Of a DNA stretch of 64,000 nucleotides, positions 7,881 to 44,179 are shown one piece after another. The position numbers and the translations under genes are program-made. Position 1 is the first letter of the stretch. Each line of letters begins with the position of its first letter. The notes under the pieces are model-generated. The model made no database searches and had not been told where the DNA came from. It saw only the letters and a program-made list of their open reading frames with translations. Location of the stretch: assembly GCA_021156365.1 (NCBI GenBank), contig JAJNDK010000003.1, positions 1 to 64,000 of the forward strand. Reading direction: 5' to 3'. This DNA is from Bacteroidota bacterium (GTDB lineage: Bacteria > Bacteroidota > Bacteroidia > B-17B0 > Aurantibacillaceae).

Positions 7881-7985
7881 GTTTTCTTTAGTGGTGGAGA
7901 ATGATAAACAGCTTGTTACAAAGAAATTTGTAGTCCAGGATGGATGCTGTTACCGATATGTGTTCTATATAGTATAGGGAAGGAA
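7881..7985 (+). pseudogene. Relic of a T9SS type A cargo gene 3' end
   Basis: These ~100 bases match the last codons and 3' flank of the gene ending at 11931 (intact copy about 11872-11972). Over roughly 92 bases I count about 9 mismatches and no gap. The relic reads VVENDKQLVTKKFVVQ where the intact gene reads VMENDKPLATKKFVVQ. The match continues about 40 bases past the intact stop codon, and the relic has lost that stop, so this is a DNA-level duplicate and not protein constraint. No body of the gene precedes it: the relic abuts the T-run of the preceding terminator. The rest of the 7811-8089 gap shows only this relic, the terminator and an AT-rich leader. Confidence 0.85.
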
Positions 7986-8089
7986 TTATTAAATTCCGAA
8001 AAAAGTTCGGTTTACCGCCCTTTTTAAGTAAATTAGAATTCATACCTTGCGGCACGAATTAAACACCCTTATCACTAAAATCAAAACCT

Positions 8090-9133
8090 ATGAAAAAAAG
8101 TATTCTTTTTCTTTTTGTGCTTTGCATGCTGGGAGGCAGCAAAGTACAAGCGCAATCGCCAGCTTGTCTCGTAGCCGCAAAACTAACTCCTGTACCACAA
8201 CCCGCCGGTCCTGATGTAGACACCATTATTTCTTCACCGCAAGGAGAAAAATGGTTCAAATTTGCAGCGATAAAAGAAGGAGTTACGATAAACGTGACAT
8301 CCTTCCTTACAGCATTAGGGTATCGTACAGACAAAATCGAACTGTACAAAGGAACTTGTTCTTCCCTTGCCTTTCTGGGAAAAGACAGTCTGAGTGGTGT
8401 AACCGATTCTACTTTTAGTGTATATGCGGACAGTCTTGCTTTGACGGATTCCCTTTTTCTGCGCACTACCTGTATCAGCAATAGCTATTGCGGTGGTTGC
8501 GGAAATTCAAACTTAAAATTCCAATTGGAGATATTTTTCGATCCTGGAGATCCGCATAATTGTGTCACCTGTACCACAATGACAAATTGTAATCTGGTCT
8601 GCAATGGTGATTTTGAGCAACACAATCCTAATGGCATTTCTGCTACCTTTAACAATATATCGAATGCTTGTGGTTGGTCAGATGTCTTACCCGCAACAAC
8701 ATGTGACTATTACCACACAAGTACGCCCTTTGGTAACAATACTTCGGCACCTTGCAGCGGAGCAGGGATTGAAACACCTCACGGTGGTCAGGGTTATGCA
8801 GGGTTTGTAGTTGGGCAAGGTAATCTGAATAACGCTCCATGGTATGAGTACATGAAAACTCAATTATTGGCGCCTCTCACGCCAAATCAAACATATACTG
8901 TTAGTTTTTGGCTTTCTCAGGCAGAGAAAAGTCGTTTACATATAGGAAATGTAGGAGTCTATTTTTATAGTAATCCAGGTATACAGCAATCTGTACAGGA
9001 AGCAACCCGGCCATACAGGGTCCCACCCCACGGACTACAAAAGTTGGAGTACCTTCTACCGGTACCACCAATTATCCCAACTATTTTGAAAGCGATCAGT
9101 ATGGTGTGTACAACAGTACGAACCGAAACTTAG
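8090..9133 (+). CDS. T9SS cargo protein, N-terminal part; reading frame broken near 9000
   Basis: The protein begins with a clear signal peptide (cleavage after SKVQAQ). Residues ~30-140 form a beta domain, followed at ~165 by a module starting NLVCNGDFE and containing PHGGQGYAGF and YTVSFWLSQAEK. The gene at 10768 has the same kind of module (NLVPNWSFE, SGNSYAGIG, YCISFYV), probably a jelly-roll binding domain. The last ~45 residues after IQQSVQ look like out-of-frame sequence. Frame 1 carries a plausible continuation from 8974 to 9212 (IQGPTPRTTKV, YGVYNSTNRNLEARDNEF), which then passes to frame 3 at about 9165-9190. The gene is thus either a frameshifted single cargo gene or a fusion left by a deletion. 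No sorting domain remains in this frame. Confidence 0.7.
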   Translation: MKKSILFLFVLCMLGGSKVQAQSPACLVAAKLTPVPQPAGPDVDTIISSPQGEKWFKFAAIKEGVTINVTSFLTALGYRTDKIELYKGTCSSLAFLGKDSLSGVTDSTFSVYADSLALTDSLFLRTTCISNSYCGGCGNSNLKFQLEIFFDPGDPHNCVTCTTMTNCNLVCNGDFEQHNPNGISATFNNISNACGWSDVLPATTCDYYHTSTPFGNNTSAPCSGAGIETPHGGQGYAGFVVGQGNLNNAPWYEYMKTQLLAPLTPNQTYTVSFWLSQAEKSRLHIGNVGVYFYSNPGIQQSVQEATRPYRVPPHGLQKLEYLLPVPPIIPTILKAISMVCTTVRTET

Positions 9134-9215
9134 AAGCACGTGATAATGAGTTTAAGATCATTGACAAGATCGGGATCTACCGGGTGTTCATTTTAATGAT
9201 AACCGGAATGCGATC

Positions 9216-10718
9216 ATGAACATAAGCAGCAATGAGTTCAACTGGCTTAACTGGAGTACAACCACTACCCAGCAGAGTGTAAACGGTATTATTGTGAACA
9301 ATGCAGTGGTAAATACGGTTGGAAGCCTGCTATTGAATCGTAACAATATTGCCAACCTGCAAAAGGGCATCACGCTTACTTTGCAGGGATACACGGGCAG
9401 CGGAACGGCCGGCAGGGTAATCGTGTTTGAAAACCAGATCCGTTTTAATCAATTGCAAACTTCTACTGTGGCTGTGCAGCATTATGGGGTAGGTGTTTTC
9501 GGCTCTAAACGAATAACAGTGGATGGAGATAACTCGCTTGGAGAGATCATACGAGTAACAATTTCAGCTTCCAGTTTAAATAATACTACAACTCAACGTG
9601 ATTTGTTTAGCGGCATACGTATTGAGGATTCACCGGAAAGTTGGATTACCGACATGAATATTGCGAACGTACCGGCAAGTATCTATGCAAAAGGTGCCTG
9701 CACTACCAGTGATTTTTGGTGTAATACTTTTACTGGAGCTTATAACGGCGTTTATTTGTTTAATAATACGAATGTTGGCGATCAATTAAATCTTACTACT
9801 CCAAACTATCACGCCGCAACTGGAAATCAGTGGATTTCTACAACTCCTGCCGGCGGTAAAGTTGAAGGTAATCCATCACCTCCAATTAATTGGTACTATT
9901 CTACATCCGGTGGTGCAAATTTCAATCCTCTACCTTCAATCTTTGCGACGAACGTTACTTTTTTAATTGCAGATAACACTTCTGATGCCTGTGCTTTCCA
10001 AACATCGCCGGAAGATCCTGGTGATCCTGATGGCAGGTTGGCTGCTTCAAGTGCGGACGAGCCGGAACCAGAAGCACCTAAAAAATCGGTCGAAGAGCCT
10101 GAAACTGGTAGTAATTCTACCAATGCACGTACATTTGATGACGAGCCGCAGCTCGAACTATACCCCGCTTACCTGGATTCAATGGGTATTGAAGCTGCTG
10201 CTACTTATAATGCTTTAATCGCAACTGAAAATGAGGCAGAAGCAGCGCGGAAACAAGTGGATGAAATTCACCTTCGCTCCTGGGCACAGGGAATTTCATA
10301 TTTCACAGCTACAGATAGTGCTTACCTCTGCCAATTGGTGATTGAAGATCCTGCTACTTTTGGAAGCGCAGTTTACAGCGCTCAGGTAATGGTAGGTGAA
10401 TGCTATGGTGGTGGAGAATCGGCAAGATTATTTAATATATCTGCGGAAACACTGCAGATAATTCTTGTAAGCAGAGGCAGAATTTACCCGAACCCGAATG
10501 ACGGGCTCATGCAGGCAGAGTTTACACTGAAGGATGCGGAACGTGGTACATTAGAAATCCTATCCTTATCCGGGAATAAGTTGTCTTCTTATATGTTGAA
10601 TGCCGGATCGAATAATTTTGTAATAGATGAAAGTAAGCTGCAAGCAGGGATATATCTGTACCGGATCACGATTAATGGTTCTGTAATAGAGATCAAAAAG
10701 CTGGTCATTGTCAAATAA
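9216..10718 (+). CDS. Right-handed beta-helix-like protein with T9SS type A sorting domain, 5' end lost or frameshifted
   Basis: The ATG at 9216 is probably not the original start: frame 3 is open from 9165 (HFNDNRNAIMNISSNEFN), there is no signal peptide, and the preceding beta-helix rungs continue in frame 1. Residues 1-240 have beta-helix-like rungs with Asn-rich turns (LLLNRNNIANLQKGITL, NAYNGVYLFNN-like). A linker rich in Glu/Pro follows (about 265-310), then a helical segment. The type A sorting domain starts at IYPNPNDG and ends in KKLVIVK. The product would be secreted by the T9SS only if joined to the upstream signal peptide (gene at 8090). Without repair of the two frame breaks it is a pseudogene. 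Confidence 0.72.
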   Translation: MNISSNEFNWLNWSTTTTQQSVNGIIVNNAVVNTVGSLLLNRNNIANLQKGITLTLQGYTGSGTAGRVIVFENQIRFNQLQTSTVAVQHYGVGVFGSKRITVDGDNSLGEIIRVTISASSLNNTTTQRDLFSGIRIEDSPESWITDMNIANVPASIYAKGACTTSDFWCNTFTGAYNGVYLFNNTNVGDQLNLTTPNYHAATGNQWISTTPAGGKVEGNPSPPINWYYSTSGGANFNPLPSIFATNVTFLIADNTSDACAFQTSPEDPGDPDGRLAASSADEPEPEAPKKSVEEPETGSNSTNARTFDDEPQLELYPAYLDSMGIEAAATYNALIATENEAEAARKQVDEIHLRSWAQGISYFTATDSAYLCQLVIEDPATFGSAVYSAQVMVGECYGGGESARLFNISAETLQIILVSRGRIYPNPNDGLMQAEFTLKDAERGTLEILSLSGNKLSSYMLNAGSNNFVIDESKLQAGIYLYRITINGSVIEIKKLVIVK

Positions 10719-10733
10719 TTTATTAACTTTAAT

Positions 10734-10766
10734 GCAGGGAGTTTAAACGCTCCCTGCTCTTTTTTT
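10734..10766 (+). terminator. Rho-independent terminator touching the next start codon
   Basis: GCAGGGAG and CTCCCTGC form an 8-bp perfect stem with an 8-base loop, followed by TCTTTTTTT. Only one base separates the T-run from the ATG at 10768, so the downstream gene has no room for its own leader here. Confidence 0.85.
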
Positions 10767-10767
10767 A

Positions 10768-11931
10768 ATGAGGGGATTGTGGAGGATATTGATATTGTAT
10801 CTATTTCCGTTGTTTGCAGACGGACAAGGTAATCTCGTCCCAAACTGGAGTTTTGAAAACATTTCCTCTTGTCCATCGTTAGGTGGAGATATAAACAAAG
10901 CTTTGCCGTGGTTTTCAGCAAGCAGTTCAGGGAGTTCGACAGATTTATATAATGTGTGTGATAATACCTTTTTTGGTATACCCTACAACTCAGTTGGTTT
11001 CCAAATCACGAAATCGGGAAATTCATACGCAGGGATCGGTGTTTACGCAAGTACAGATTATAGGGAGTACGCGGAAGTGAAATTAATAGATTCATTAAGA
11101 GTTGGTGAAATTTATTGCATTAGTTTTTATGTAAATCCAGCCAATGTAAATACTTGTTATACTTCTTCCATTGGAGCACGGTTAAGCCATGATAGCCTTT
11201 TAAGACCTTCGGGAAATACTTTGATAAATGCAACGCCGGATGTATTATCGGCAAACTTTATCACGGACACAATTAATTGGCATCGAATATCAGGAACCTA
11301 TAACTGTACATCAACGTCCAACTATTTGACGATTGGCAATTTCTTTAATGATGCAAATACAACCTTCTCAAATTCACCGAATAATATGTACTATTATCTC
11401 GATGACGTTTCCATAGTAGAAGTTAGTAATGCAGATGCAAGCAATGACACAAGTATGTGTTCCGGAGAAACAATAGCTATTGGCGGGCTACCAACCTTTG
11501 ATGCAGAATACACCTGGTATGAGCTTGCAGACAGCACAAACAGCAGTAGCATTGATAGTATCCATATTGCAAAACCACACATTTCGCCAATACAAACCAC
11601 CACTTATGTGATGTGGAAACGACAGTGCAATGTGATCACTACGGATACAGTAATTGTTACTGTGAATTGTGTGGGAATAAAACAAGCAGATAAAAAGCAG
11701 GATCTGATCATTTACCCGAACCCGGCATCGGAAAGTGTTACTGTTAGCTATGCAGGCAATGGGGCAGAAATACGGGTCTGCGATCTCTTAGGGAAAGTGG
11801 TAAAAAGACTATCTCTGAATATAGGTAAAACCGAAATAGACCTGGGCGGACTGAATAACGGGGTCTATTTTATTTTAGTCATGGAGAATGATAAACCGCT
11901 TGCTACAAAGAAATTTGTAGTCCAACATTGA
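10768..11931 (+). CDS. T9SS type A sorting domain-containing secreted protein
   Basis: The 387-residue protein has a signal peptide (about residues 1-20, ending LFADGQ). A jelly-roll-like module follows (NLVPNWSFE to DDVSIVEV, about 22-215), then an Ig-like module (about 220-300, DTSMCSGETIAIGG to DTVIVTVNC) and a type A sorting domain (LIIYPNPASESVTV to KKFVVQH). It is inferred to be exported by the T9SS and cell-surface attached or released. The N-terminal module resembles that of the gene at 8090, so the two are probably related cargo genes. Its start codon sits one base after a terminator T-run, so expression from an upstream promoter seems unlikely. Its last codons and 3' flank recur as the relic at 7881-7985. 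Confidence 0.88.
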   Translation: MRGLWRILILYLFPLFADGQGNLVPNWSFENISSCPSLGGDINKALPWFSASSSGSSTDLYNVCDNTFFGIPYNSVGFQITKSGNSYAGIGVYASTDYREYAEVKLIDSLRVGEIYCISFYVNPANVNTCYTSSIGARLSHDSLLRPSGNTLINATPDVLSANFITDTINWHRISGTYNCTSTSNYLTIGNFFNDANTTFSNSPNNMYYYLDDVSIVEVSNADASNDTSMCSGETIAIGGLPTFDAEYTWYELADSTNSSSIDSIHIAKPHISPIQTTTYVMWKRQCNVITTDTVIVTVNCVGIKQADKKQDLIIYPNPASESVTVSYAGNGAEIRVCDLLGKVVKRLSLNIGKTEIDLGGLNNGVYFILVMENDKPLATKKFVVQH

Positions 11932-12007
11932 TGCTGTTACCGATATGTGTTGTATATAGTATAGAGAAGGATCTATCTCCTAAAAATAAGAGCAGAAAAC
12001 AAAAACC

Positions 12008-12742
12008 ATGAAAACTATCCTATTTGCTATCCTGCTGACCTTTTGGACGGCTTCTTTTGCACAGAAGTTCGGGGTGGATGTAGGGTATTCCTATACATTC
12101 AACCGATTAAAAGTTATTGATGAGTACCCCGTATATGGCTATACTGACACAGAATTGAAACAACGGTTTTTTCCAAACATTTCGCTGCGGCCTTACGTAA
12201 AATTTCATAAGAAGCTGTTCTTCTATTTTGGGGTGGATTTTGTTAGATATGAATTCAGGCGCTCTTTTTATTTTAATAGTCCGGAGCATATTAATTATAA
12301 TATTCACTGGATCATATCGGAAACACAGATACCGGTGATGTTGAGGATCGAAGCAGCGAAGTTCAAAAGCAGGTACACTCTGTCTGTTTACGGAGGGATG
12401 TTTGCCCGGTTTACCGGCTCACGAAAAAGAGGGAGTTCATCCATGGGCCAGATCGGAGATTCCGGTACTGAAATGTCCATACGCGAAGACCGGCAGCGTT
12501 TCACCAATTTTCTGGCAGGGTTTCACCAAACTTTCCCGTTTACAAAGTGTATGGAAGGATATATAGATATTCAGTTGAAATATATGCCAGGTTATTATTA
12601 TGGTTCTCCCAATGTAATGAGGGTGTTTCTGCCGTTCCATGTTGAAAATAAACTCAGCTTTTCTTTTACCCTCGGCATCAGCCTCCTGAAACCCGAAAAA
12701 GAAAAAGTTCCAAATGTCGATCCTACAAGGCTGGAGGACTAA
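12008..12742 (+). CDS. Outer-membrane beta-barrel-like protein, first of two tandem paralogues
   Basis: The 244-residue protein has a signal peptide (cleavage after ASFAQK) and then alternating aromatic/hydrophobic strands (KLFFYFGVDFVRYEF, LSVYGGMFARF, LSFSFTLGISLL), as expected for a small outer-membrane barrel. It is clearly related along its whole length to the gene at 12760: both share AQKFGVD, SVYGG-FARF, the ELQLKY-type strand and the end VDPTRLED. Substrate or function is not recognisable. The gap to the next gene is 17 bases, so the two are probably co-transcribed. Confidence 0.82.
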   Translation: MKTILFAILLTFWTASFAQKFGVDVGYSYTFNRLKVIDEYPVYGYTDTELKQRFFPNISLRPYVKFHKKLFFYFGVDFVRYEFRRSFYFNSPEHINYNIHWIISETQIPVMLRIEAAKFKSRYTLSVYGGMFARFTGSRKRGSSSMGQIGDSGTEMSIREDRQRFTNFLAGFHQTFPFTKCMEGYIDIQLKYMPGYYYGSPNVMRVFLPFHVENKLSFSFTLGISLLKPEKEKVPNVDPTRLED

Positions 12743-12759
12743 CTTAACTGAGCACATCT

Positions 12760-13512
12760 ATGAAAAGACAATTTATTCTGCTATTCCTTTGCTTCATAAC
12801 GGCAGCTTCTTTTGCACAGAAGTTCGGGGTGGATCTGGGACATGCTTTTAGCATTAATCGGTTTAAAAATATTACTCCGCGTTATGATCCATATATGTAT
12901 GTGATATCCGATGAAAAGCAAAATCTTTTTCCTAATGCCTCATTTCGTCCTTACTTCAGGATCTACAAGAAAATATATGTTAGTTTTGGTGTAGATCTGT
13001 GTAAATACAAATTCAGACAATCTGTATATGATACTGATATTAGCGGGCATAATTACAGCGGTCGCCTGGTTATTTCCGAATTCCATACACCGCTCATGAT
13101 CCGGGCGGAAATACATCGGTTCAAGCAAAGCCATCCGCTTTCTGTTTATGGAGGAATATTTGCAAGATTTCTTAACCGCACCCAGGGGAATTCTCTTTGG
13201 CACAAGGCAAACTTTGATTCCATACCGGAAAAGGATCTTCATATGGATATAAATATCAGGAATGAGAGCTTCAATTTGCTGGTGGGTCTTCACCAGGCAT
13301 TTTATTTGAAAAAATTCACACAACTCTATGCAGACCTTCAATTGAAATATATATCGGGATACATAGACGCGGAATTAGGTTCTTTCCCCATTCATTCACT
13401 GCCGATGAAGGTAGAGAACAAACTGGCCATAAGTCTTGGTTTTGGCATCAGCTTTCTGAAACCTGATAAAGGAGAAGTTTCTCATGTTGATCCGACAAGA
13501 CTGGAGGATTAA
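12760..13512 (+). CDS. Outer-membrane beta-barrel-like protein, second of two tandem paralogues
   Basis: The 250-residue protein carries a signal peptide (cleavage after AASFAQK) and a barrel-like strand pattern (KIYVSFGVDLCKYKF, LSVYGGIFARF, LAISLGFGISFL). It is a paralogue of the preceding gene, offset by about 770 bp. Its C-terminus is VSHVDPTRLED. The same C-terminal coding sequence reappears as a relic at 14549-14593 beyond the lipoprotein gene, which suggests that a third copy once existed. Function unknown. Confidence 0.82.
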   Translation: MKRQFILLFLCFITAASFAQKFGVDLGHAFSINRFKNITPRYDPYMYVISDEKQNLFPNASFRPYFRIYKKIYVSFGVDLCKYKFRQSVYDTDISGHNYSGRLVISEFHTPLMIRAEIHRFKQSHPLSVYGGIFARFLNRTQGNSLWHKANFDSIPEKDLHMDINIRNESFNLLVGLHQAFYLKKFTQLYADLQLKYISGYIDAELGSFPIHSLPMKVENKLAISLGFGISFLKPDKGEVSHVDPTRLED

Positions 13513-13555
13513 AACAAACAATTACAACTAACTATTAAACCTTAAAAACAGCCAC

Positions 13556-14545
13556 ATGATAAAGATCTCTAAAACCATCACCCTTGTTATTGCCATTATT
13601 GCGATAAGCTCCTGTAAAAAAGATCCGAAAGGCGCTTCAATGAATACGTATCCTTCTTTAGCTTATTTCTTTGCTCAGTACGCACCGGTTATGCAAACAT
13701 ACACTATTAGTGGAACTACCGGCGGGAGTTTTACTTCTCCACAGGGAACTACTGTGGTTATTCCTGCCAATGCTTTTTCCGATCCGTCGGGCGCTCCTGT
13801 ATTAGGCAACGTTACTATACACTTTAAAGATATCTATAAAAAAAGCGACATGTTATTTGCCGGCATGCCAACTATGATGTACAATAAACGACCGCTGAAA
13901 TCAGGGGGCGAGTTTTTTATCAAAGCCACTGCCAATAGCTTAGCTCTTACTCTTACGCCAGGAAAAAAAATAACGATCAATCAACCTGTATCATTGACCG
14001 GAGGGATTGATCCGCCCAATCCACAACTGCCTTTTGTTTTTAATGACTCTATACCTCTCGGGTTTACTCCGGGTGGTCCGATAGGCCCCGCGGGGCCCGG
14101 AGGCTTTGCAAGCGGCTGGATCCTTTCGCCGGCTGATAGTGTAATTACTTCGGCTAATAATTATATTTTCAGTTTGTATCAATTCAGTATGCCGGCTGAT
14201 TCGGGTACATGGTGCAACAGTGATAACAACAGTTATTTCAGCGCCTATCCGCAAACAACGTTGACACTTATCCCGGATGAGCCCATCAGTGAATACCATA
14301 CTTCCGTTTACCTTATATTCACGAATATCAGCTCTATGGTTCATGTTTATGATAATGGAACCAATTTTCCTTATCAGTATGCTCCTCAGGGCTTGCAATG
14401 TACAATAGTTGCTGTTGGCACGAAGGAGGGTAAATTATACTCTTCTTTTATTCCTGTTTCAATTGGCCCCAACCACTCTCAGCATTTTTCGATGCACCTG
14501 ACTAATAGCGCGGAATTTGCAGACCAGCTCGATGCATTGAATTGA
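13556..14545 (+). CDS. Putative lipoprotein, Bacteroidota hypothetical
   Basis: The 329-residue protein has a lipoprotein signal with the lipobox ISSC (Cys20) followed by KKDP, so it should be lipid-anchored. The next part (about 45-190) contains GGSFTSPQGTTVVIPANAF and NVTIHFKDIYKKSDML. That pattern occurs in many Bacteroidota lipoproteins with a beta-rich domain resembling the start of ZU5/GAIN-like modules, but I do not assign a named family. The C-terminal half is beta-rich and Pro/Gly-rich. It lies 43 bases after the barrel paralogues. Directly after its TGA stop, in the same frame, comes a 15-codon relic of the barrel gene's 3' end. Confidence 0.75.
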   Translation: MIKISKTITLVIAIIAISSCKKDPKGASMNTYPSLAYFFAQYAPVMQTYTISGTTGGSFTSPQGTTVVIPANAFSDPSGAPVLGNVTIHFKDIYKKSDMLFAGMPTMMYNKRPLKSGGEFFIKATANSLALTLTPGKKITINQPVSLTGGIDPPNPQLPFVFNDSIPLGFTPGGPIGPAGPGGFASGWILSPADSVITSANNYIFSLYQFSMPADSGTWCNSDNNSYFSAYPQTTLTLIPDEPISEYHTSVYLIFTNISSMVHVYDNGTNFPYQYAPQGLQCTIVAVGTKEGKLYSSFIPVSIGPNHSQHFSMHLTNSAEFADQLDALN

Positions 14546-14548
14546 AGT

Positions 14549-14593
14549 AAAAGAAAAGTTTCACATGTCGATCCCACAAGACTGGAGGATTGA
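14549..14593 (+). pseudogene. Relic of a third barrel-paralogue 3' end
   Basis: The codons read KRKVSHVDPTRLED followed by TGA. The genes at 12008 and 12760 end in KEKVPNVDPTRLED and KGEVSHVDPTRLED. The relic is in the same frame as the upstream lipoprotein (13556-14545), separated from it only by that gene's TGA stop and one codon. No other part of a barrel gene is present. It lies 1081 bp after the matching bases of the second paralogue. Confidence 0.85.
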
Positions 14594-14610
14594 TCAATTC
14601 TTCAAAAACA

Positions 14611-14650
14611 AAAAACGGAGTCTCCCACGCCATAAGAGAACTCCGTTTTT
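14611..14650. terminator. Bidirectional hairpin terminator between convergent genes
   Basis: AAAAACGGAGT and ACTCCGTTTTT form an 11-bp perfect stem with an 18-base loop, with T-runs usable on both strands. It sits between the plus-strand lipoprotein region and the minus-strand gene ending at about 14703. Confidence 0.85.
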
Positions 14651-14833
14651 AATCGACCGGCCTAAACAAAACCGGCCGACAGAGGATAGATGAATTCAAT
14701 ACTTAAACCACCATTATACTTTTAGCCTGGCTCAGCGCCCCTTCTCCTTCATTACTGATCGGGTAATACCGAACGTAGAGAGTGGAGCCGGGCTGCTGTG
14801 CGCTGATCGTGATCTTTGCGAGAGTAGAGCTGG

Positions 14834-15247
14834 TTACCTTACCATCACCACACCGTTGCCCGGGGCATCGAGTGTGAGCTCGGATACGGAGCTGCCTCCT
14901 CCGCTTTGCATCACCTGCATTCCTGCAGATGTGATAAAAGTTTCCGCATCTACATTCTGGTTCGCTACATACTCCACGTGTGCTTTGATCAGGTTGAAGG
15001 CTGTTACCAGCATTCGTTCCTTCTCGCGCATATCGCTTGTACTGCCGGCTGTTCCCGAATTAGTGGCCACTATTGCGTGGTGCAGGTTGTCGATCAATGT
15101 CTGCATACTTACGTATCCGACCGGCAGCTGCGCATCAGGATATAAGGTACTTGCCATCATATCATTCTTAATGCCCTGCGCTCTTGTCACTTTTGCCTCG
15201 GGTGTCAATATACTCAACCCGAGGACTGCTTTAGCTTTATTGCTCAT
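14834..15247 (-). CDS. Hypothetical protein, probably frameshifted; original stop near 14703
   Basis: The open frame encodes 137 residues starting MSNKAKAVLGLSILTPEAKV, mostly helical, with a Gly/Ser stretch (QSGGGSSVSELTL) at the end that leads into a beta domain. It stops at GNGVVMVR. A different frame downstream then continues sensibly as VTSSTLAKITISAQQPGS, LYVRYYPISNEGEGALSQ and AKSIMVV, with a TAA at 14703-14705. This suggests a fibronectin-III-like tail joined by a one-base loss near 14840, either a mutation or a sequencing error. The full product would be about 181 residues. There is no signal peptide. The start is preceded by a perfect AAAGGAGGTG Shine-Dalgarno, unlike its neighbours. 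I do not recognise the function. Confidence 0.65.
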   Translation of the reverse strand: MSNKAKAVLGLSILTPEAKVTRAQGIKNDMMASTLYPDAQLPVGYVSMQTLIDNLHHAIVATNSGTAGSTSDMREKERMLVTAFNLIKAHVEYVANQNVDAETFITSAGMQVMQSGGGSSVSELTLDAPGNGVVMVR

Positions 15248-15252
15248 TTTAA

Positions 15253-15266
15253 AACACCTCCTTTCT
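15253..15266 (-). promoter_or_regulatory. Strong Shine-Dalgarno sequence
   Basis: On the minus strand, AAAGGAGGTG lies about 7 bases before the ATG at 15247. Other genes in this window lack such a site, as is usual in Bacteroidota. It fixes the start of the gene at 14834-15247 and suggests unusually high translation or foreign origin. Confidence 0.7.
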
Positions 15267-15496
15267 CTTGCACTTTCTCCGGCGTATTAGAAAAATGTCT
15301 TTTGTTATAAGAGTTGAACGCAGACAAAAAGCAAAGGTTCGGAGAAATAAGCAAGTGGCAGGAGACGTTTGGCAAGTGGTCAGAAATTAAAAATAAGTGG
15401 CGTGGAAGAATATGAAAGGCTATTCTAAGAACCGGAATTTTTCCTCTTTTCTTCCCCGATCCACTACTACAAACGGACGATCAGGTGAGCTTTGGG

Positions 15497-17322: not shown

Positions 17323-17328
17323 TCAGCC

Positions 17329-17931: not shown

Positions 17932-17953
17932 TATTCAACCAATGTAAACCCTA

Positions 17954-36461: not shown

Positions 36462-36473
36462 ACTTTATTTTTA

Positions 36474-36503
36474 TTTGAGGCATTCCGGCTCCTTGTACCT
36501 TTG
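36474..36503 (+). promoter_or_regulatory. Predicted promoter of the TerB/J-domain gene
   Basis: TTTG at 36474-36477, 18 bases, then TACCTTTG at 36496-36503, an ideal Bacteroidota promoter. The ATG at 36525 follows 21 bases later, which rules out the upstream TTG at 36501. Confidence 0.7.
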
Positions 36504-36524
36504 ATACTTTATATTCTTATCAGT

Positions 36525-37259
36525 ATGAAATTAGGTAAATGGGTGGGCGGAGGAATAGGCTGGGCATTCGGTGGTCCGATCGGCGCTCTTGTTGGTTTTG
36601 TCCTTGGTGCTCTGTTCGACAATGCTTCTCTTATAGTACACGATCCGGGTACGGCTTCCATTAACAATACGACTACACAACCGGGCGATTTTGCCCTGTC
36701 TTTGCTGGTGCTGTCGGCGGCAGTCATGAAAAGCGACGGCAAGACCCTGCGCTCGGAGCTGGATTATGTGAAAAAATTCCTGGTCACCCAGTTTGGGTCC
36801 TCCCAGGCGCAGCAATTGCTCCAGGTATTGAACGATGTGCTGAAAAAAGACATCCCCGTGTACGAAGTATGTGTACAGATCCGCGATCATATGCCGGAGA
36901 GCGCACGTCTTCAGTTGTTACATTATTTATACGGGATCTCGAAGGCGGATGGTGAGGTAAGCGATCAGGAAGTGATCATGATCGACAATATCGCTAATTA
37001 CCTGAACATTTCGGGGGCCGATGCAGCATCTATTAAAGCGATGTATTACCGCGATACGGAAAGCGACTATCGGATCCTGGAAATTGCCCCCACTGCTACT
37101 GATGAGGAAGTGAAGAAAGCCTACCGCAAAATGGCCCTGAAATACCATCCGGATAAAGTAATGGATATGGGGGAGGCTGTTCAAAAAGCGGCAGAGGAGA
37201 AATTCAAAAGCCTGAACGATGCCTATGAAAGCATTAAAAAGAAACGCGGAATGGCCTGA
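36525..37259 (+). CDS. TerB-like/J-domain co-chaperone (DjlA-like)
   Basis: From the ATG at 36525 the protein has 244 residues. A glycine-rich hydrophobic N-terminus ([26 protein letters not shown]) probably anchors it in the membrane. A TerB-like helical domain follows (about 55-170, with [11 protein letters not shown] and [12 protein letters not shown]). The J domain at the C-terminus (about 181-240) has HPDK at residues 208-211. This order is that of DjlA, a membrane DnaK co-chaperone. The lipoprotein gene begins 22 bases downstream. Confidence 0.9.
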
Positions 37260-37281
37260 TGCTGCCTGCAATACAATATAT

Positions 37282-37629
37282 ATGAAAAAATTACTTCTTA
37301 TCCTGCCTTTGTTCCTCTTTGCCTGCAGCTCTTCGCAGGAAGTAGAGTATGAAAAAACCAGCGGAAAATCGAATGTGGTGAAAGCCGGTTCGCGTTTCCA
37401 CATCAACCTGAGTGAAGACCATAAAGTAGGCTCGGGGCTCTGGTCGGTGAAACAGGATTTTGATCCCAAAGTGATAAGTTACGTGAATTCCGTTTATAAT
37501 TCAGATAACGGGGGCAGTGTCGATTTCAATTTTGAGGCGATCGACAAAGGGAAGACCGAGATCCACCTCTGTCAGAGCTTTGCACGTGACACCATACAAA
37601 CAGCTTCTTTTGTTGTGGAAGTGCAGTAG
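37282..37629 (+). CDS. Small lipoprotein, possibly chagasin-like (I42) fold
   Basis: The ATG at 37282 begins a lipoprotein signal (MKKLLLILPLFLFAC, Cys15), giving 115 residues. The mature part has a beta pattern GSRFHINLSE, SGLWSVKQDF, GGSVDFNFEAIDKGKTEIHL and SFVVEV. It recalls the chagasin-type protease inhibitor fold (I42), but the canonical NPTTGY loop is not obvious, so the assignment is tentative. It converges on the next gene, whose stop lies one base away. Confidence 0.7.
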   Translation: MKKLLLILPLFLFACSSSQEVEYEKTSGKSNVVKAGSRFHINLSEDHKVGSGLWSVKQDFDPKVISYVNSVYNSDNGGSVDFNFEAIDKGKTEIHLCQSFARDTIQTASFVVEVQ

Positions 37630-37630
37630 T

Positions 37631-40324
37631 TTAGCGGATCAGCTGGATAAAACCTTTCTTTTCTTTGATCACATCATTCAGGCATGGATCGGCAAAACGT
37701 AGTATATAATAATAAACCCCTGCTGCCTGGCCTTCACCACTCCAGGTATTAACAGCATTATCGGAAGAGATTATTTTTTTGCCCCAGCGGTCGAAGATGT
37801 CGATATGAAAAGATGAGGATAATTCATATGCCTCATAGAACAGGTAATCATTGGCACCGTCATTGTCGGGTGTAAAAATGTTCGGCATGTCTTCATAGTC
37901 TTTGAATACTATAGCGTTTACTGTGAAAGTGTCATTCGTCACACAACCCTGGTTGTCGATACTAACAGTGTATACGCCTGTATGAGTGATATGTATAGCA
38001 GACGTTATTTCACCTGTAGACCACTGATGAGCATATGCTGTATTTCCTGTGCTTACCGTTTCATTTACGGGCCCGCAACTATTTATTTCCGATGGAATGC
38101 TGCTGACAGGATAAAGGATCGATCCAATGTGAACAGAGTCCGTTTCGTTACCACAGGAGCTTGATACACTCAGCCAGTAATCGCCTGCACTTACATCGAT
38201 AGATGGTGTGACTGCTCCTGTGGACCAATGGAAATTACCCGTCAATGTAGATGGGCTGGATAACGCTACAGTGCCACCGTTACAGGTACTTATATCAGGT
38301 CCTAAGTCAACCGGATTCAGGGAAATTATGTTTATGGAAATTTCTTCATGATAAATACAGGATCCGATGTAGGCATCGATAGTATGGATACCCGGTGTTG
38401 AAAAAACGTAGGAGTAAAATCCAAAAATAACGGAGTCCCATACAACAAATCCAAAGAGCGGGTCAGCATGCAGTGTGACAGATTCTCCGTCGCAAATAGT
38501 AGTATCGTTTCCTAAGAGGTTCGTTATTGAAGCTGTAGATAGAATAGTAATGCTGTCTCTTGCCGTACATCCAAGCTCGCTCAACTCCACCCAGTAAATG
38601 CCGGGAGCTGAGACGATGATCATGTCGATGGCTGTTTCCCCGGTAGACCAGAGTATATCCGGCTGCGATACAGGGTTACTCCAATCGATTAGAGCGAGAC
38701 TATCTCCCGGGCACAGGTACATATCGTTTGCAAGAAAAGGAACTATATTACCGACAATCGTAAGCTGAATGGTATCCTTAGTCGTGCAACCGCCGTCGTG
38801 TATGCTTAAGATATGCATCCCACCCATGTGCAGATTGGTTACGCGCCCCGTATCACCGTTGGACCATGCGTACTGAACACCAGCAAAAAAGGGCACCTGA
38901 ATAGTTAAATAGCTTCCGTTACAAATTGTAGTATCATCCGGGAGATGAAAAGCGTGTACATTCCCAACTTGTATAACTTTTACGATGGTATCGGAAGAAG
39001 AAGAGCTATTGATGATCAGGGAAACGGTGTAACTACCGACCGATGCATATTGATGTACAGGGTGCTGGAGAGTAGAAATATTAGCGGCACCCGAAGAAGG
39101 TTCACCAAAGTTCCAGTGCCAGGATACGGGGCCGGAATAACAGGTATTCATTGTTCCGGAAAAATGCGTTACATCGCCAAGGCATACATCGGCATAAACA
39201 AAGTTGTTGGTTATGCCGGATACATTGGATTGAATAGGATCAGAAATACCAAGCGCGCAAACGGAGTTCGTTGTGATCTTCGAAAAAGAAGGATTGAGTG
39301 AATTAGGCTGGCTGATCACATGGATCTGATACCCACCATCATGTACTACATAGAGATTCCCGTCGGGCCCCAGCTCGATCTGCCCGGGACCGTCAAAATT
39401 TGTTCCCGGAGCAAGTGTTGAGTTGAGGAAAAAACTCTGACTCGCACCTGTATTAAAATCATATTGAAAAAAATTATTCTCGAAATTTTCATACCATGCG
39501 GACATATATACTTTACTTCCATCTGGCGAGAATTCTACACCGTAAAACCCACCATAAGTAGTAAAAGAGTTAAGATTTACGAGAACAGGATTCGTGAAAA
39601 TTCCGGTTTGCGGGTCAAAATCCCCCAATAAGGCATCATTCGAATAACTGAAACTGATCCCTATTCTGCCACTGTGATAATCCAACTCACTTCTTCCGTC
39701 GTACATAAAGTTGGGAGGAGCGTGACTGAAAATAACCTGTCCATTGGAAATACCGGAACTATCTATGGTAAACCGTTTAAGACCATATTCACATGCGTAT
39801 CCTACCAGCCAGTATTTGTTTTGGCAGGGCACCTGGATAATTTCCAGTCCTTCGGAAAACGTGACCTGGTCGATTGGTGTATTCAGCTGGATCACATCAC
39901 CCTGTCCTCCTGCGAGGCTCATATCCACGATGCAATAGTAAAGCTGCGAGCAAGTCTCCGAATTGTGGATTACATAATATTGTAAAGAATTAGCGGGATT
40001 GGGACAAATAACTACCTCGGCACTGGAAGGGCTGGCAAGCATTCCTACAGACCCGGGCATTATTGTTTGTGTGGTACCTCTGAACACACCATTGGCATTT
40101 ACGAAAAAGAGAATGTTCCCGGAGGGGTCTTCCACATGTGAGATCGCTTCAAAGCCATCCGGGACTCCTGTGTAATTAACTACCGGGGAGCCATTTGAAA
40201 AGTCAAGTTTAATGATATTATCATAGCTGTTGATTAATAAATTGCGCGTTTGTCCGTTTGAATGATAAACAGAAGAGAATGCAAACAGGCATACAATTAA
40301 TTTCAAATAGTGTGTTGACTTCAT
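37631..40324 (-). CDS. Propeller/PKD surface protein with T9SS type B sorting domain
   Basis: The 897-residue protein has a signal peptide (ending VYHSNGQ) and a beta-propeller-like region (about 27-370) with VEFSPDGSKVYMS and IELGPDGNLYVV. A PKD domain follows (WHWNFGEPSSG, about 375-460), then several Ig-like domains with DTTICNGSYL and NDTTICDGESV type starts. The type B sorting domain carries IFTPDNDGANDYL and IFDRWGKK. It is inferred to be T9SS-exported. It is a separate unit, transcribed towards the TerB/lipoprotein genes and divergent from the TonB receptor. Confidence 0.92.
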   Translation of the reverse strand: MKSTHYLKLIVCLFAFSSVYHSNGQTRNLLINSYDNIIKLDFSNGSPVVNYTGVPDGFEAISHVEDPSGNILFFVNANGVFRGTTQTIMPGSVGMLASPSSAEVVICPNPANSLQYYVIHNSETCSQLYYCIVDMSLAGGQGDVIQLNTPIDQVTFSEGLEIIQVPCQNKYWLVGYACEYGLKRFTIDSSGISNGQVIFSHAPPNFMYDGRSELDYHSGRIGISFSYSNDALLGDFDPQTGIFTNPVLVNLNSFTTYGGFYGVEFSPDGSKVYMSAWYENFENNFFQYDFNTGASQSFFLNSTLAPGTNFDGPGQIELGPDGNLYVVHDGGYQIHVISQPNSLNPSFSKITTNSVCALGISDPIQSNVSGITNNFVYADVCLGDVTHFSGTMNTCYSGPVSWHWNFGEPSSGAANISTLQHPVHQYASVGSYTVSLIINSSSSSDTIVKVIQVGNVHAFHLPDDTTICNGSYLTIQVPFFAGVQYAWSNGDTGRVTNLHMGGMHILSIHDGGCTTKDTIQLTIVGNIVPFLANDMYLCPGDSLALIDWSNPVSQPDILWSTGETAIDMIIVSAPGIYWVELSELGCTARDSITILSTASITNLLGNDTTICDGESVTLHADPLFGFVVWDSVIFGFYSYVFSTPGIHTIDAYIGSCIYHEEISINIISLNPVDLGPDISTCNGGTVALSSPSTLTGNFHWSTGAVTPSIDVSAGDYWLSVSSSCGNETDSVHIGSILYPVSSIPSEINSCGPVNETVSTGNTAYAHQWSTGEITSAIHITHTGVYTVSIDNQGCVTNDTFTVNAIVFKDYEDMPNIFTPDNDGANDYLFYEAYELSSSFHIDIFDRWGKKIISSDNAVNTWSGEGQAAGVYYYILRFADPCLNDVIKEKKGFIQLIR

Positions 40325-40392
40325 GTAATGTTCTTTAAAGATACCTAAAAAAGGTCCGGCTACAATTTAAGTGGTAATTTGCAGGAGCAGAT

Positions 40393-40423
40393 TTTGTCAA
40401 TTGCCTGGCCCGTGTTATCTTCG
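40393..40423 (+). promoter_or_regulatory. Possible promoter of the TonB-dependent receptor gene
   Basis: TTTG at 40393-40396, 19 bases, then TATCTTCG at 40416-40423 (one mismatch to TAnnTTTG). It ends only 9 bases before the ATG at 40433, so the message would be almost leaderless. Confidence 0.4.
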
Positions 40424-40432
40424 TTTTCGCAA

Positions 40433-42799
40433 ATGACAAAATCGCTATTTACTACACTATTTATTTTTTTCTGTACAGCGGTTTTTTCGCAGGAATTGAC
40501 ACAAACGATCCGCGGAACGGTGCTCGACAAACAAACCCAAAACCCGCTGCCAGGCGCTGTTGTAGTGATTCTCAACTCTTCTCCCGCCATTGCAGCTACC
40601 ACGGATGAGAACGGCAAATTCAGGTTGGAGAAAGTAGCGATCGGACGTTTGCAGCTAAAGATCTCCATACTGAGTTACAAGGAAAAAATCCAGTCACTGA
40701 TATTAACCACCGGAAAAGAGATAGTACTCAACGTTGAGCTGGAAGAGAATGCTGTTCAGGCGGAGGAAGTAGTTATTGTGGCGGAGGGCGACAAAACCAA
40801 GACAAATAACAAGATGGCGATGGTGAGTGCGCGTGTTTTTTCCACCGAAGAAGCCAACCGGTATTCGGGCAGCAGGGGAGATCCGGCACGTATGGCATCC
40901 AACTTTGCAGGTGTAAGCGGTGCCAACGACAGCCGGAACGATATCATCATCCGCGGTAATTCGCCGATGGGTGTTTTGTGGAGAGTAAATGGTTTGGATA
41001 TCCCGAACCCTAATCACTTTGGCTCACTGGGTTCAACCGGCGGACCTATCAGCATCCTGAACAATAATACATTGGATAATTCCGATTTTATGACCGGTGC
41101 CTTTCCGGCAGATTATGGAAATGCAACGGCGGGTGTATTCGATCTGAAAATGCGCAGCGGGAACAATGAGAAATATGAATTCCTGACGCAGGCCGGGTTC
41201 AATGGATTTGAATTAGGAGCAGAAGGACCTTTTTCGAAGAAGAAAAAGAATAGTTCTTTTCTTATCAATTACCGTTATTCTACTTTATCTGTTTTCAAAT
41301 ACCTGAACATCGATTTCGGTACGGGAGCCGCTGTTCCGCAATACCAGGATCTTACCTTCAAAATGGATTTCCCGACTAAGCGAGCAGGGAAGTTCACCGT
41401 GTGGGGCATCGGCGGATTGAGCTATGTAAATATGCTGTCCAAAGAACAATCGAAAGACAACAACCTGTATGGATACAGCGGAAGAGACATTTATTATAAA
41501 TCCAATGTAGGTGCCGGAGGTATTTCGCATGTGAAGATCCTGAATTCTTCCTCGTACATAAAAACAAATATCGGACTGAGCGGGCAATACAATAAGATCG
41601 TTGCAGATCGTGTGGATACGAATGTAGTTCCGAACATCACCGTACCCGAGTACCGCAATTATTCGTACACCGTTCGTTATTCGGGCAATACTACTTATAA
41701 TAAAAAATTCAATTCGCGTAATTTCGTGAATACCGGGATCTATGCAGATGTGTATTCCACTTCTTTCATCGACAGCACCAATTATTTCGACAGCACAGGC
41801 ATTGTTCCGATGCGAAGCTACCAGGGACAAACATTGCTGGGCAGGTATTTTGCACAATGGCAGCATAAGTTCTCTGACAAACTCTCGCTGAACTCCGGTG
41901 TAAGCTACCAGTATTTTTTTCTGAATAATTCGCAGGCATTGGAATACCGGGCAGGATTGAAATACGACATCAATTCCAAACAATCCCTGAGCTTCGGATC
42001 AGGTATGCACAGCCAGTTGCAGCCTTTGTATATTTATTTTTCTACGGCCAAAACCGCTCAGGGAAATGTAGAAACGAACCGGAATCTCGGTTTCACAAAA
42101 GCTGTTCACGGAGTGCTGGCTTATGATCTTTCGTTATTCAAGGATGCGCGGATAAAAGCGGAGGTGTATTATCAGTATCTCTACAATGTTCCGGTACGCA
42201 CCCGATCCAATTATTTTTCTGCCATCAACCTGGGTGCTGATTTTAACAGCCCGAATATTGACAGTCTTGTGAACAAGGGAACGGGCGATAATTATGGTTT
42301 TGAGCTTACCGTAGAGAAATTTTATAGCAAAGGCTATTATTTCCTTTTTACTGCATCCATCTTCCAGAGCAAGTATACAGGAAGTGATAACATCTATCGC
42401 AATACGGCTTTCAATGGTAATTATGTTGTAAATCTCTTAGGCGGAAAAGAATTTAAGATCAAAGAAAAACACACGTTTGCGATCGACACGAAATTTTTAT
42501 TTGCAGGGGGCAAGCGATATGTGCCGATCGATCTTGCTGCTTCCGTGGCATCCAATATCGAAGTGTATGATCCGGCGCAGGCCTATGTGCCGCAGTTCGC
42601 TCCTTATTTCCGCTGGGATATCAAGCCTTCCTACCGCATGAATACCAAAAAATTTACGCACGAATGGAGTGTGGATATCCAGAATGTGACGCGTCATAAT
42701 AATGTATTCCAGCAGCAGTTCGATCTGAACACAAAAACAGTCAAAACGGATTATCAATTGAAATTTTTCGTGGTGCCGCAGTATAGGTTAACGTTTTAG
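40433..42799 (+). CDS. TonB-dependent receptor with carboxypeptidase-like N-terminal domain
   Basis: The ATG at 40433 begins a signal peptide (MTKSLFTTLFIFFCTAVFSQ), giving 788 residues. An N-terminal CarboxypepD_reg-like domain (about 25-105, IRGTVLDKQTQNPLPGAVV) precedes the plug (NNKMAMVSARVF, DIIIRGNSPMGVLWRVNGLDIPNP) and a 22-strand-type barrel ending in an aromatic/hydrophobic strand (VVPQYRLTF). It imports a substrate through the outer membrane using TonB energy. There is no SusD-like partner next door, so the substrate is probably not a glycan, but this cannot be read from the sequence. Confidence 0.92.
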   Translation: MTKSLFTTLFIFFCTAVFSQELTQTIRGTVLDKQTQNPLPGAVVVILNSSPAIAATTDENGKFRLEKVAIGRLQLKISILSYKEKIQSLILTTGKEIVLNVELEENAVQAEEVVIVAEGDKTKTNNKMAMVSARVFSTEEANRYSGSRGDPARMASNFAGVSGANDSRNDIIIRGNSPMGVLWRVNGLDIPNPNHFGSLGSTGGPISILNNNTLDNSDFMTGAFPADYGNATAGVFDLKMRSGNNEKYEFLTQAGFNGFELGAEGPFSKKKKNSSFLINYRYSTLSVFKYLNIDFGTGAAVPQYQDLTFKMDFPTKRAGKFTVWGIGGLSYVNMLSKEQSKDNNLYGYSGRDIYYKSNVGAGGISHVKILNSSSYIKTNIGLSGQYNKIVADRVDTNVVPNITVPEYRNYSYTVRYSGNTTYNKKFNSRNFVNTGIYADVYSTSFIDSTNYFDSTGIVPMRSYQGQTLLGRYFAQWQHKFSDKLSLNSGVSYQYFFLNNSQALEYRAGLKYDINSKQSLSFGSGMHSQLQPLYIYFSTAKTAQGNVETNRNLGFTKAVHGVLAYDLSLFKDARIKAEVYYQYLYNVPVRTRSNYFSAINLGADFNSPNIDSLVNKGTGDNYGFELTVEKFYSKGYYFLFTASIFQSKYTGSDNIYRNTAFNGNYVVNLLGGKEFKIKEKHTFAIDTKFLFAGGKRYVPIDLAASVASNIEVYDPAQAYVPQFAPYFRWDIKPSYRMNTKKFTHEWSVDIQNVTRHNNVFQQQFDLNTKTVKTDYQLKFFVVPQYRLTF

Positions 42800-42828
42800 A
42801 GAATGCGGAGATTTCGTTGTAGGATCGA

Positions 42829-43371
42829 TCAATGATGCAGGTTATTCCATTCCTCCTTTGTTATTTTCAGCCAGTCGCAGGGAAGCCCTTTGGAATCAAA
42901 CTTTTCGATGAAGGTCAGACCGCATTTTTCCAACGCCCGGCGCGATTTTGTGTTTTCTACGTGTGCAGTTCCAATAATTTCCTCCAGGTTCATTTGCTCA
43001 AAGCCATAACGTAAAGCAGCTTTTGCCGATTCCGTGGCATAGCCTTTCCCCCAGTATTTCGGTATGAGCCTATACCCCACATCATGAAAATTTGTTTGAT
43101 TGTTCTCCGCTTCTGTAATGAACTTTAAGCCGCTCCATCCGATAAAGTTCCCGGTTGATTTTTCAATGGCGGCCCATCGGCCAATTCCGTAATCTATGTA
43201 TTGCTTGCAAATGAACCGGATCATTGTCCTTACGTCTTCCATGCTTTTTGCGGGATTGTTCCCCAGGTATTTGTGTACATCGGGATTTCCATCCATTTCG
43301 AAAAAGGCTTCTTCGTCTGTTGGAAGAATTTCTCTTAATATCAGTCGTTCGGTCTCAATAATTATTTTCAT
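42829..43371 (-). CDS. GNAT family N-acetyltransferase (RimJ/RimL type)
   Basis: The 180-residue protein follows the Acetyltransf_3 pattern: ETERLILREILPTDEEAFFEMD, WAAIEKSTGNFIGWSGLKF, DVGYRLIPKYWGKGYATESAKAALRYGFE (the acetyl-CoA loop GKGYATES) and VENTKSRRALEKCGLTF. It transfers an acetyl group to an amine, in RimJ/RimL relatives a protein N-terminus. The real acceptor is unknown. It is the last of several minus-strand small genes here. Confidence 0.93.
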   Translation of the reverse strand: MKIIIETERLILREILPTDEEAFFEMDGNPDVHKYLGNNPAKSMEDVRTMIRFICKQYIDYGIGRWAAIEKSTGNFIGWSGLKFITEAENNQTNFHDVGYRLIPKYWGKGYATESAKAALRYGFEQMNLEEIIGTAHVENTKSRRALEKCGLTFIEKFDSKGLPCDWLKITKEEWNNLHH

Positions 43372-43418
43372 GAGATGTTTTCTTTCTGTTGGGATTTCCT
43401 ATTTTTTGGTCTGCTACA

Positions 43419-44072
43419 TTAGTTGTCTTTCGCATAAACCATTCTATAAAGTCCTGTTGCACCGTTCAAATCCTTGCCGTCCTTTTTTACCAACCGGAAA
43501 TTATGCTTTTTCATGATTGCTGTTGTTTCGTCAGCAGTATAATTTTTATGTGCTTTATTCAAACAGGTTGATTCAAGTATGTAAAGTTTTCCGTTTTTCT
43601 TAAGCTTTCTGCTGATGTCTGCAATCATTTCGTCCATAAAAGTGAATTCATGGAACGTAGCGCTTAAAAATAGTTTATCAAAAGTAGCGTCGGGAAGATT
43701 GCTTGATTTCTCTGTCCCTATGCATAAGTTAAGCTTACCTGTCAATGGTTTTTTATACTTTTCACACTGCCGGATAACTTTGTCGACGTTTTTTTGATTT
43801 AAAGTATGCGTATTTATGTCTTGTGCATAAAATGTCAGGCTGTCCGTTAAGAGTAATAGACCACCAATGTTCTGTCCCTTATTTGCGCCAATTTCCGCAA
43901 CGATGTCCCCTTTCTTAAATTCAAAGAAACCCAGCAGATCATTTTCACTTTCAAAAAAATTCGCAAAATTGCCGTAAACCTTATACGAAAAAGTCGACCC
44001 GGTCTTTTTGGTAGTCGAACTTGTCAATGAGAAAAGACCAAGTAAAAGAAATATAAGTGCCTGCCGTTTCAT
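43419..44072 (-). CDS. SAM-dependent methyltransferase-like protein with signal peptide
   Basis: The 217-residue protein begins with a hydrophobic stretch (MKRQALIFLLLGLFSLTSST) that looks like a signal peptide. A class I methyltransferase fold follows: a motif I-like VAEIGANKGQNIGG, TFYAQDINTH (motif II) and TFDKLFLSATFHEF, with LKKNGKLYILE near the end. Cytoplasmic methyltransferases need S-adenosylmethionine, which is not normally available in the periplasm. An exported enzyme is therefore odd, although related Bacteroidota proteins with this layout exist to my knowledge. Start choice cannot remove the signal without losing part of the fold's N-terminus. Confidence 0.8.
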   Translation of the reverse strand: MKRQALIFLLLGLFSLTSSTTKKTGSTFSYKVYGNFANFFESENDLLGFFEFKKGDIVAEIGANKGQNIGGLLLLTDSLTFYAQDINTHTLNQKNVDKVIRQCEKYKKPLTGKLNLCIGTEKSSNLPDATFDKLFLSATFHEFTFMDEMIADISRKLKKNGKLYILESTCLNKAHKNYTADETTAIMKKHNFRLVKKDGKDLNGATGLYRMVYAKDN

Positions 44073-44095
44073 ACCATTTAAATATACAATTTTTT

Positions 44096-44179
44096 CTAAG
44101 TGGCTTCCACATCCATCATCACCTGCGTTCCCGTACTATAATTTGCGCGGATGTCGATCTCTTTATGCAATTTGAGCAT
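44096..44179 (-). pseudogene. Relic of the radical SAM gene's 3' end
   Basis: This 84-base stretch reads on the minus strand as a 27-codon frame starting ATG and ending GTQVMMDVEAT then TAG. The intact radical SAM gene (44628-45659) ends in the same 11 residues, and its bases lie exactly 532 bp away. Over about 70 bases I count about 14 mismatches, with 23 identical bases in one run. The intact end has CANC (an Fe-S cysteine pair); the relic reads RANY, so the cysteines are lost. The cupin gene lies between the two copies. Confidence 0.85.

Follow-up and report, generated by a model that had tools for sequence, protein, structure and literature searches.

The window analysed here is a stretch of 64,000 nucleotides (nt) at the start of contig JAJNDK010000003.1 of a Bacteroidota bacterium of the family Aurantibacillaceae (assembly GCA_021156365.1). 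In our genome sample it is C22:1-64000 of G000, a genome of 5.31 Mb in 23 contigs. At three places in the window a short stretch of DNA repeats the end of a gene that is found intact nearby, while the body of the gene is absent; we call these stretches relics 1, 2 and 3. Relic 1 lies among genes for cargo proteins of the type IX secretion system (T9SS), relic 2 follows a pair of tandem paralogues, P1 and P2, and relic 3 is separated from a radical SAM gene by a cupin gene (Table 1). The original prediction, made from the sequence alone, paired each relic with one particular gene, read the pattern as what units integrating into gene 3' ends, perhaps as small as a single gene, would leave behind, named tandem duplication with loss of the gene body as a process that would give the same picture, and considered a shared process worth testing. 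The repeats themselves are all re-found by repeat search, with gene-versus-neighbourhood E-values of 3e-16, 6e-11 and 3e-14 for relics 1, 2 and 3, respectively. Genes were called with a simple codon model and compared by eye with the list of open reading frames (ORFs); some starts are shortened in the calls, and the frame 8090-9133 is missed.

Table 1. Features of the window that are discussed in the text
Feature	Position	Strand	Basis
Hairpin and T-run resembling a terminator, after the OmpA-family gene 5576-7810	7857-7880	+	read by eye; OmpA domain
Relic 1: end of a T9SS-cargo gene (last ~60 coding nt, then ~45 nt of 3' flank); no body, stop codon lost	7882-7989	+	repeat search
5' leader of gene 8090, of a dispersed kind	7980-8089	+	sequence match to C8
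T9SS cargo gene(s), apparently broken; open frames 8090-9133 and 9216-10718	8090-10718	+	Por_Secre_tail at the C-terminus of the second frame
Intact T9SS cargo gene, end matches relic 1	10768-11931	+	Por_Secre_tail
P1, tandem paralogue, no Pfam or NCBIfam match, ends in VDPTRLED	12008-12742	+	profile scans, alignment
P2, tandem paralogue of P1 (46% at the amino acid level), ends in VDPTRLED	12760-13512	+	alignment
Lipoprotein-like gene (name from the original prediction) between P2 and relic 2, without a match in Pfam or NCBIfam	13556-14545	+	profile scans
Relic 2: end of a probable third P-type gene (16 codons, SKRKVSHVDPTRLED and stop); no body	14546-14593	+	repeat search
Relic 3: end of the radical SAM gene (27 codons, with its tail and stop); two Cys codons changed	44097-44181	-	repeat search
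Cupin gene, separates relic 3 from the intact radical SAM end	44197-44604	-	Pfam; distribution in genomes
Intact radical SAM/SPASM gene with C-terminal tail QVMMDVEAT	44628-45659	-	Pfam, alignment

Relic 3 matches positions 44629-44713 at 78% of 85 nt, on the minus strand and in frame to the stop codon; the two Cys codons that it has lost belong to the SPASM region. The homologous proteins of G001 and G002, the two same-genus genomes among the relatives searched, and those of G020 and G027 end in KVWA or RVWAD, without QVMMDVEAT. This tail is carried both by the intact end in G000 and by relic 3, and the relic therefore derives from G000's own lineage. Over the 18 codons (54 nt) that can be compared, the intact end and G002 have 12 differences, relic 3 and the intact end 13, and relic 3 and G002 25. 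The 13 differences between relic 3 and the intact end all point the same way: G002 has the base of the intact end in every case (13/13) and that of the relic in none (0/13). Since G002 sides consistently with the intact end, relic 3 appears to fit a duplicated host end that decayed.

The cupin gene, which occupies the space between the two ends, has homologues at the level of 75-78% only in G037 and G050, members of two other families; 19 of 60 genomes, G000 included, have a match at all, and the rest of the matches are at 44% or below. Judged by this distribution, the cupin would be a horizontal acquisition. The radical SAM gene closes a block that is syntenic with G002:C16:288357-303252, and the window genes beyond its 3' end have no syntenic partner in G002:C16:1-400000. 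Of the three relics, this one best fits the proposed insertion, and it is the only one that is best read in this way: the cupin gene, acquired horizontally, would have entered the DNA downstream of the radical SAM gene, and some 85 nt of the 3' end of the latter would have been duplicated in the same event. The radical SAM gene would so have kept an intact end, and the second copy would then have decayed, as in an event of the same type in G009, described below.

The cupin homologue of G050 sits between 58-nt direct repeats with 84% identity (L259 1179-1236 and 1923-1980, on G050:C20). Repeats of this type have matches in five of the six genomes tested (G050, G009, G002, G015 and G000, not G037), and the motif recurs once or twice more in each of G009, G015, G002 and G000; perhaps it is a cassette-like repeat of Bacteroidia.

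Several relatives have more than one match to the radical SAM gene. The second copy is a partial one in G042 (64%, residues 3-194; G042:C9:9473-10048), which may reflect a contig break or a further relic, and a paralogue at 46% in G024. The same two explanations may apply to G054, where the main match stops at residue 297 and a second match (G054:C30:8682-8753) covers residues 317-340. G000 itself has no second close radical SAM gene, its next best match being 30% over residues 50-188. When the ends of radical SAM genes were inspected in 80 relatives, the end was found repeated in 2 of the 80 loci, L128 and L155. The first of these (RIFCSPLOWO2_12_FULL_35_15, 6995-7255) is a tandem repeat, downstream of the gene, of its last few nt and its flank, with no gene in between, and the other is a short repeat. 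On the other side of the radical SAM gene, at 45933-48193 of the window, an RlmF-like gene, a DnaJ-like gene and one unknown gene separate it from a GidB-like gene, an arrangement not seen in G002.

The clearest event is found outside G000, in two members of a sister genus of the same family (g8), G009 and G015. The aldehyde dehydrogenase (ALDH) gene at G009:C1:394013-394894, on the minus strand, has a copy of its end, 52 nt long and 98% identical, at 392360-392411, and a single gene, a PMT_2 glycosyltransferase according to Pfam, lies between the two ends (L237 12360-14894, corresponding to G009:C1:392360-394894). In G015 (L279) the site is empty: the same gene is followed directly by the sequence that flanks the displaced copy on its far side in G009, with 94% identity over 160 nt. 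The glycosyltransferase gene is absent from the G015 site and from the flanks, up to 1.5 kb, of the same gene in six other members of the genus; its best other homologue among 40 genomes, in G021, is 47% identical, and its product, the only one encoded in the insert, contains no recombinase domain. Both ends in G009 share three bases that distinguish the G009 end from that of G015, and at the one position where they differ from each other, the intact copy agrees with G015. One foreign gene was thus inserted recently; the host gene still has a complete end, and its former end was left in place with the ancestral flank. The footprint envisaged in the original prediction is thus seen once, in G009 versus G015, and its comparison with an empty site can be made in full for that pair; for relic 3, synteny with G002 stops at the end of the gene. 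That both ends are of host origin in G009, and probably also in the case of relic 3, speaks for duplication of the target and against an end supplied by a donor, or else for a conspecific donor.

The geometry of relic 1 is different. It matches 11869-11976 at 88% of 108 nt, extending about 45 nt beyond the stop codon of the intact gene. Just 2 of the 9 differences in 63 coding nt fall in third codon positions, and 4 more are found in the 45 nt of flank, so that with respect to gene 10768-11931 the relic shows no coding signature. It begins directly 3' of the terminator-like hairpin and T-run of the OmpA-family gene, and the leader of gene 8090 adjoins its other edge with zero spacer; the broken cargo frames then stand between it and its intact gene. 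Relics 2 and 3 are located downstream of their intact genes and relic 1 upstream, an order that integration into a 3' end would not produce. Relic 1 would be what is left of the end of a T9SS-cargo paralogue that used to precede gene 10768; the OmpA terminator would mark one of its limits, and the other would be set by an incoming cargo gene that brought its own dispersed leader. The G001 homologue of the OmpA-family gene (68%) is followed by tRNA-Ser, with no relic within the 532 nt to the end of the contig.

The idea that relic 1 is itself a genome-wide repeat was rejected: its sole match is the intact end, and the other five matches fall in the leader that follows. The leader piece 7980-8060 is 83% identical to C8:13917-13995, just upstream of a large called gene, and the segment 7980-8089 is probably a dispersed leader or promoter module. 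Pieces of the leader 24-29 nt in length recur twice on C22 and once each on C16 and C9.

In the case of relic 2, the repeat search aligns 14525-14593 in register with both 12674-12742 and 13444-13512, although real homology is limited to approximately the last 48 nt. The pairing of each relic with one intact gene is therefore upheld for relics 1 and 3, while relic 2 matches the two tandem genes P1 and P2. It is identical to the end of P2 at 40 of 48 nt; over these last 48 nt, P1 and P2 have 10 differences, P2 and relic 2 have 8, and P1 and relic 2 have 11. Because relic 2 is about as distant from P1 and P2 as they are from each other, it is probably the 3' end of a third tandem paralogue of the P type. 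Judged by these equal distances, the body of a third family member would have been lost or replaced, and the lipoprotein-like gene would now be in its place. Homologues of P1 and P2 were found in none of the 59 other genomes searched, including G025 and G030, which contain near full-length homologues of the lipoprotein-like gene (57% and 45%, respectively). We considered and rejected the notion that VDPTRLED is a mobile C-terminal tag on unrelated proteins: in G000 it occurs only at P1, P2 and relic 2, and in none of 20 relatives.

To place the relics in a genomic context, each called gene was compared with the non-coding DNA up to 6 kb away. The part of G000 covered was C22:1-400000, with 313 called genes, and a further 0.79 Mb (the rest of C22, C16:1-400000 and C8:1-260000), for a total of 1.19 Mb, of which 1.13 Mb is outside the window. 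As a control, the genes were searched against places shifted by 90, 170 and 250 kb, which gave 0, 0 and 1 comparable matches per 400 kb; by this comparison the three relics are well beyond chance. They are also the only local non-coding gene fragments in C22:1-400000 (four rows, all inside the window). The other 0.79 Mb yielded nine weaker or other rows. The single strong 3'-edge match there, C8:19532-19571, is one part of a tandem repeat about 230 nt long; two weak edge matches, C16:152776 (5') and C22:434267 (3'), are pieces of longer paralogue matches; and the remaining rows are internal matches. No further insertion-type gene-edge relic was found in the 1.13 Mb outside the window, where the matches are to the tandem repeat and to uncalled or decayed paralogues. 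The genome-wide excess of recurring 3' ends that the original prediction would have led one to look for was not found for G000 in the 1.19 Mb sampled. As the census found no others, the window is to be seen as a local cluster, chosen for its three relics, in a genome that does not have a high rate of them.

Intergenic direct repeats around single genes gave 22 rows in 8 sets. The two in C22:1-400000, which are the only ones viewed, are a tandem pair of genes that we take to be gldN-like and a non-coding repeat flanking two genes; neither is a clear insertion. The 3' ends and terminators of the two tandem genes (C22:253675-255636) are 98% identical (C22:254521-255636) and their 5' parts are more different, as if the ends had been homogenised by gene conversion.

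In other genomes, the DNA-level census found no local gene-edge fragment in G002:C16:1-400000, and edge matches numbered none in G029, one weak in G006 and one strong in G009. We also surveyed 80 loci from other Bacteroidota records (919,216 bases, 813 called genes). Here, L161 has a 3'-edge copy of 111 nt at 79%, downstream of the intact gene and with four called genes in between besides one very short one, and L109 has a 5'-edge copy of 132 nt at 78%, with two genes between copy and intact gene; the rest of the matches are repeat arrays and internal paralogue matches. The copy in L161, from an Arcicella metagenome genome (3419-3553 with 10-630), lies just upstream of what looks by eye like a toxin-antitoxin pair. 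That in L109, from Roseivirga echinicomitans (10037-10166 with 7365-8147), is the 5'-end mirror image of the relics, and the gene concerned is presumably inositol-monophosphatase-like. A protein-level census (2,687 genes, 3,312,344 bases) re-found relics 1 and 3, G009, L161 and L109, missed relic 2, and added weaker matches; the three at or near gene edges that were re-examined, C8:6019 and C22:220483 in G000 and G029:40401, all lie in uncalled ORFs. Weaker edge matches, six in all, occur at both 3' and 5' sides, and the five that were re-examined are uncalled ORFs or longer paralogue matches; the 3'-edge match at G006:166826 was aligned only. Strong edge matches, defined by E below 1e-7 and a distance of no more than 10 nt from the gene edge, amount in the whole sample to 5 at 3' ends versus 1 at a 5' end, and outside the window to 2 versus 1, leaving out C8:19532, L123 and L155 as tandem or repeat arrays or very short called ORFs.

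On the evidence as it stands, the three relics are probably debris of three independent local events in turnover-prone stretches, and not the footprint of one site-specific mobile system; real as they are, they look largely like ordinary leftovers of gene copying, insertion and loss. Some observations pull the other way. With three relics in 64 kb and none in the 1.13 Mb sampled elsewhere in G000, the clustering is real, and it could hint at a shared local cause; the window was, for its part, singled out for holding them. The count of strong edges leans to 3' ends, with too few cases to decide. Finally, the differences between relic 3 and the intact end are concentrated in third codon positions (12 of 18 over the 27 codons, p=0.004; 7 of 13 over the 18 polarisable codons), which would suit two ends that had both evolved as coding sequence, one in a donor and one in the host, and not a decayed duplicate. 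A single process in G000, by which units of one gene each would integrate time and again into the 3' ends of genes, rebuilding the end and pushing the old one away, nevertheless strikes us as very unlikely. It can draw on the G009 footprint with its empty site in G015, on the right geometry of relics 2 and 3 (intact end upstream of the insert, displaced end downstream), and on a cupin that is foreign by its distribution and has a homologue likewise flanked by direct repeats in G050. Relic 1 departs from that geometry, no other case was found in G000 outside the window, and L109 provides a mirror image at a 5' end. The relics are, besides, the ends of three unrelated genes. Relics 1 and 2, searched together, fall in separate repeat families, and relic 3 was searched in a separate region, without a dedicated motif comparison. 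No recombinase or integrase domain was detected in the 46 window proteins scanned against Pfam, a set that does not include every window ORF, and no tRNA or Rfam-type integration site was found in the window. The mirror image in L109 and the lack of a recombinase among the 46 proteins together disfavour an integrase specific for 3' ends, and the shared process raised in the original prediction finds no support here. Its single-gene footprint holds in principle, as G009 shows; relic 1 does not have the geometry for it, and relic 2 is accounted for by a probable third paralogue. A recombinase acting in trans on the relic sites would be compatible with these results.

Two other explanations need to be weighed against independent local events. 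Duplication of whole genes in tandem followed by loss of the body is a possible source of all three relics, if not a likely one. It fits relic 2, with its array of paralogues, and possibly relic 1; tandem paralogues with near-identical 3' ends do exist in G000, as the gldN-like pair indicates, and second radical SAM copies are present in G042 and G024. For relic 3 it is opposed by the lack of a close second radical SAM gene in G000, and by the G009 relic, which passes without a break into the ancestral flank seen in G015, a junction that duplication and loss would have needed to restore exactly. We regard as improbable a homology-facilitated illegitimate recombination with the DNA of a diverged relative, in which the new end would be the donor's and the relic the recipient's old one. 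A process of this kind has been proposed for effector arrays of the Vibrio cholerae type VI secretion system (T6SS; PMC5361080), and it would account for the third-position excess in relic 3 over 27 codons and for a similar codon pattern in L161 (12 of 24 differences in third positions, p=0.07). An old resident end should, however, agree with G002 at some of the 13 differing sites, and relic 3 does so at none; in G009, both ends carry the bases that separate this genome from G015, and the donor would need to be conspecific.

Under independent local events, no integrase would be needed: illegitimate or homology-anchored recombination would suffice, and gene ends would survive because a duplication that includes the end of a gene leaves the gene working. 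Survival alone would then explain why ends are what is seen. A broader proposal, which we put forward as speculative and rather doubtful, is that in Bacteroidia single horizontally moving genes, such as the cupin and the glycosyltransferase, are inserted without an integrase and with duplication of 50-110 nt of the edge of a resident gene, so that the resident gene remains whole and the far side of the insert carries a decaying copy; relic 3 (78%) and G009 (98%) would be two age stages of this process, and L161 (3') and L109 (5') further cases. If duplication of gene edges regularly accompanies the arrival of single foreign genes, relics would be scars by which gene gain could be dated without a phylogeny, and, if true, this would reveal how dense chromosomes take up genes while the neighbouring genes stay unbroken. 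The scar of G009 versus G015, at least, is exactly that of a gene gain.

Among known systems, ordinary pseudogene formation by partial tandem duplication and decay also leaves short end copies near an intact gene, of which relic 2, and perhaps relic 1, would be examples; taken alone, it leaves unexplained why in relic 3 and G009 a foreign gene sits exactly between two ends. Integron gene cassettes are single-gene units between short repeats, as is the G050 cupin between its 58-nt repeats. In the window, in contrast, the repeats are host gene ends, different at each site, and no integron integrase is found in the 46 proteins scanned. Integrative islands at gene 3' ends restore the end and displace the old one as a direct repeat, and islands such as SGI1 are large, carry an integrase and use one conserved site. 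The inserts seen here consist of one to few genes, at unrelated target genes, with no integrase seen; the likeness is in the type of site, since SGI1, an integrative island, occupies the 3' end of trmE, which codes for a protein (PMC8409611).

The nearest described process is the homology-facilitated illegitimate recombination proposed for effector displacement in the T6SS clusters of V. cholerae, where the 3' end of the old effector is shifted back (Kirchberger et al. 2017, PMC5361080; PMC11751169). As described there, new genes arrive beside a conserved gene and the old 3' end is pushed downstream as a remnant. A foreign gene beside a homologous anchor is likewise observed in relic 3 (cupin and radical SAM end) and in G009 (glycosyltransferase and ALDH end). 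A new end of donor type together with a relic of resident type is observed in neither, relic 3 agreeing with G002 at 0/13 sites and both G009 ends being of host type; a conspecific donor would be compatible with these ends. In the T6SS clusters the upstream region is the constant anchor and the effector is swapped for a different one, whereas here the same end is regained, and the genes involved are not effector-immunity modules.

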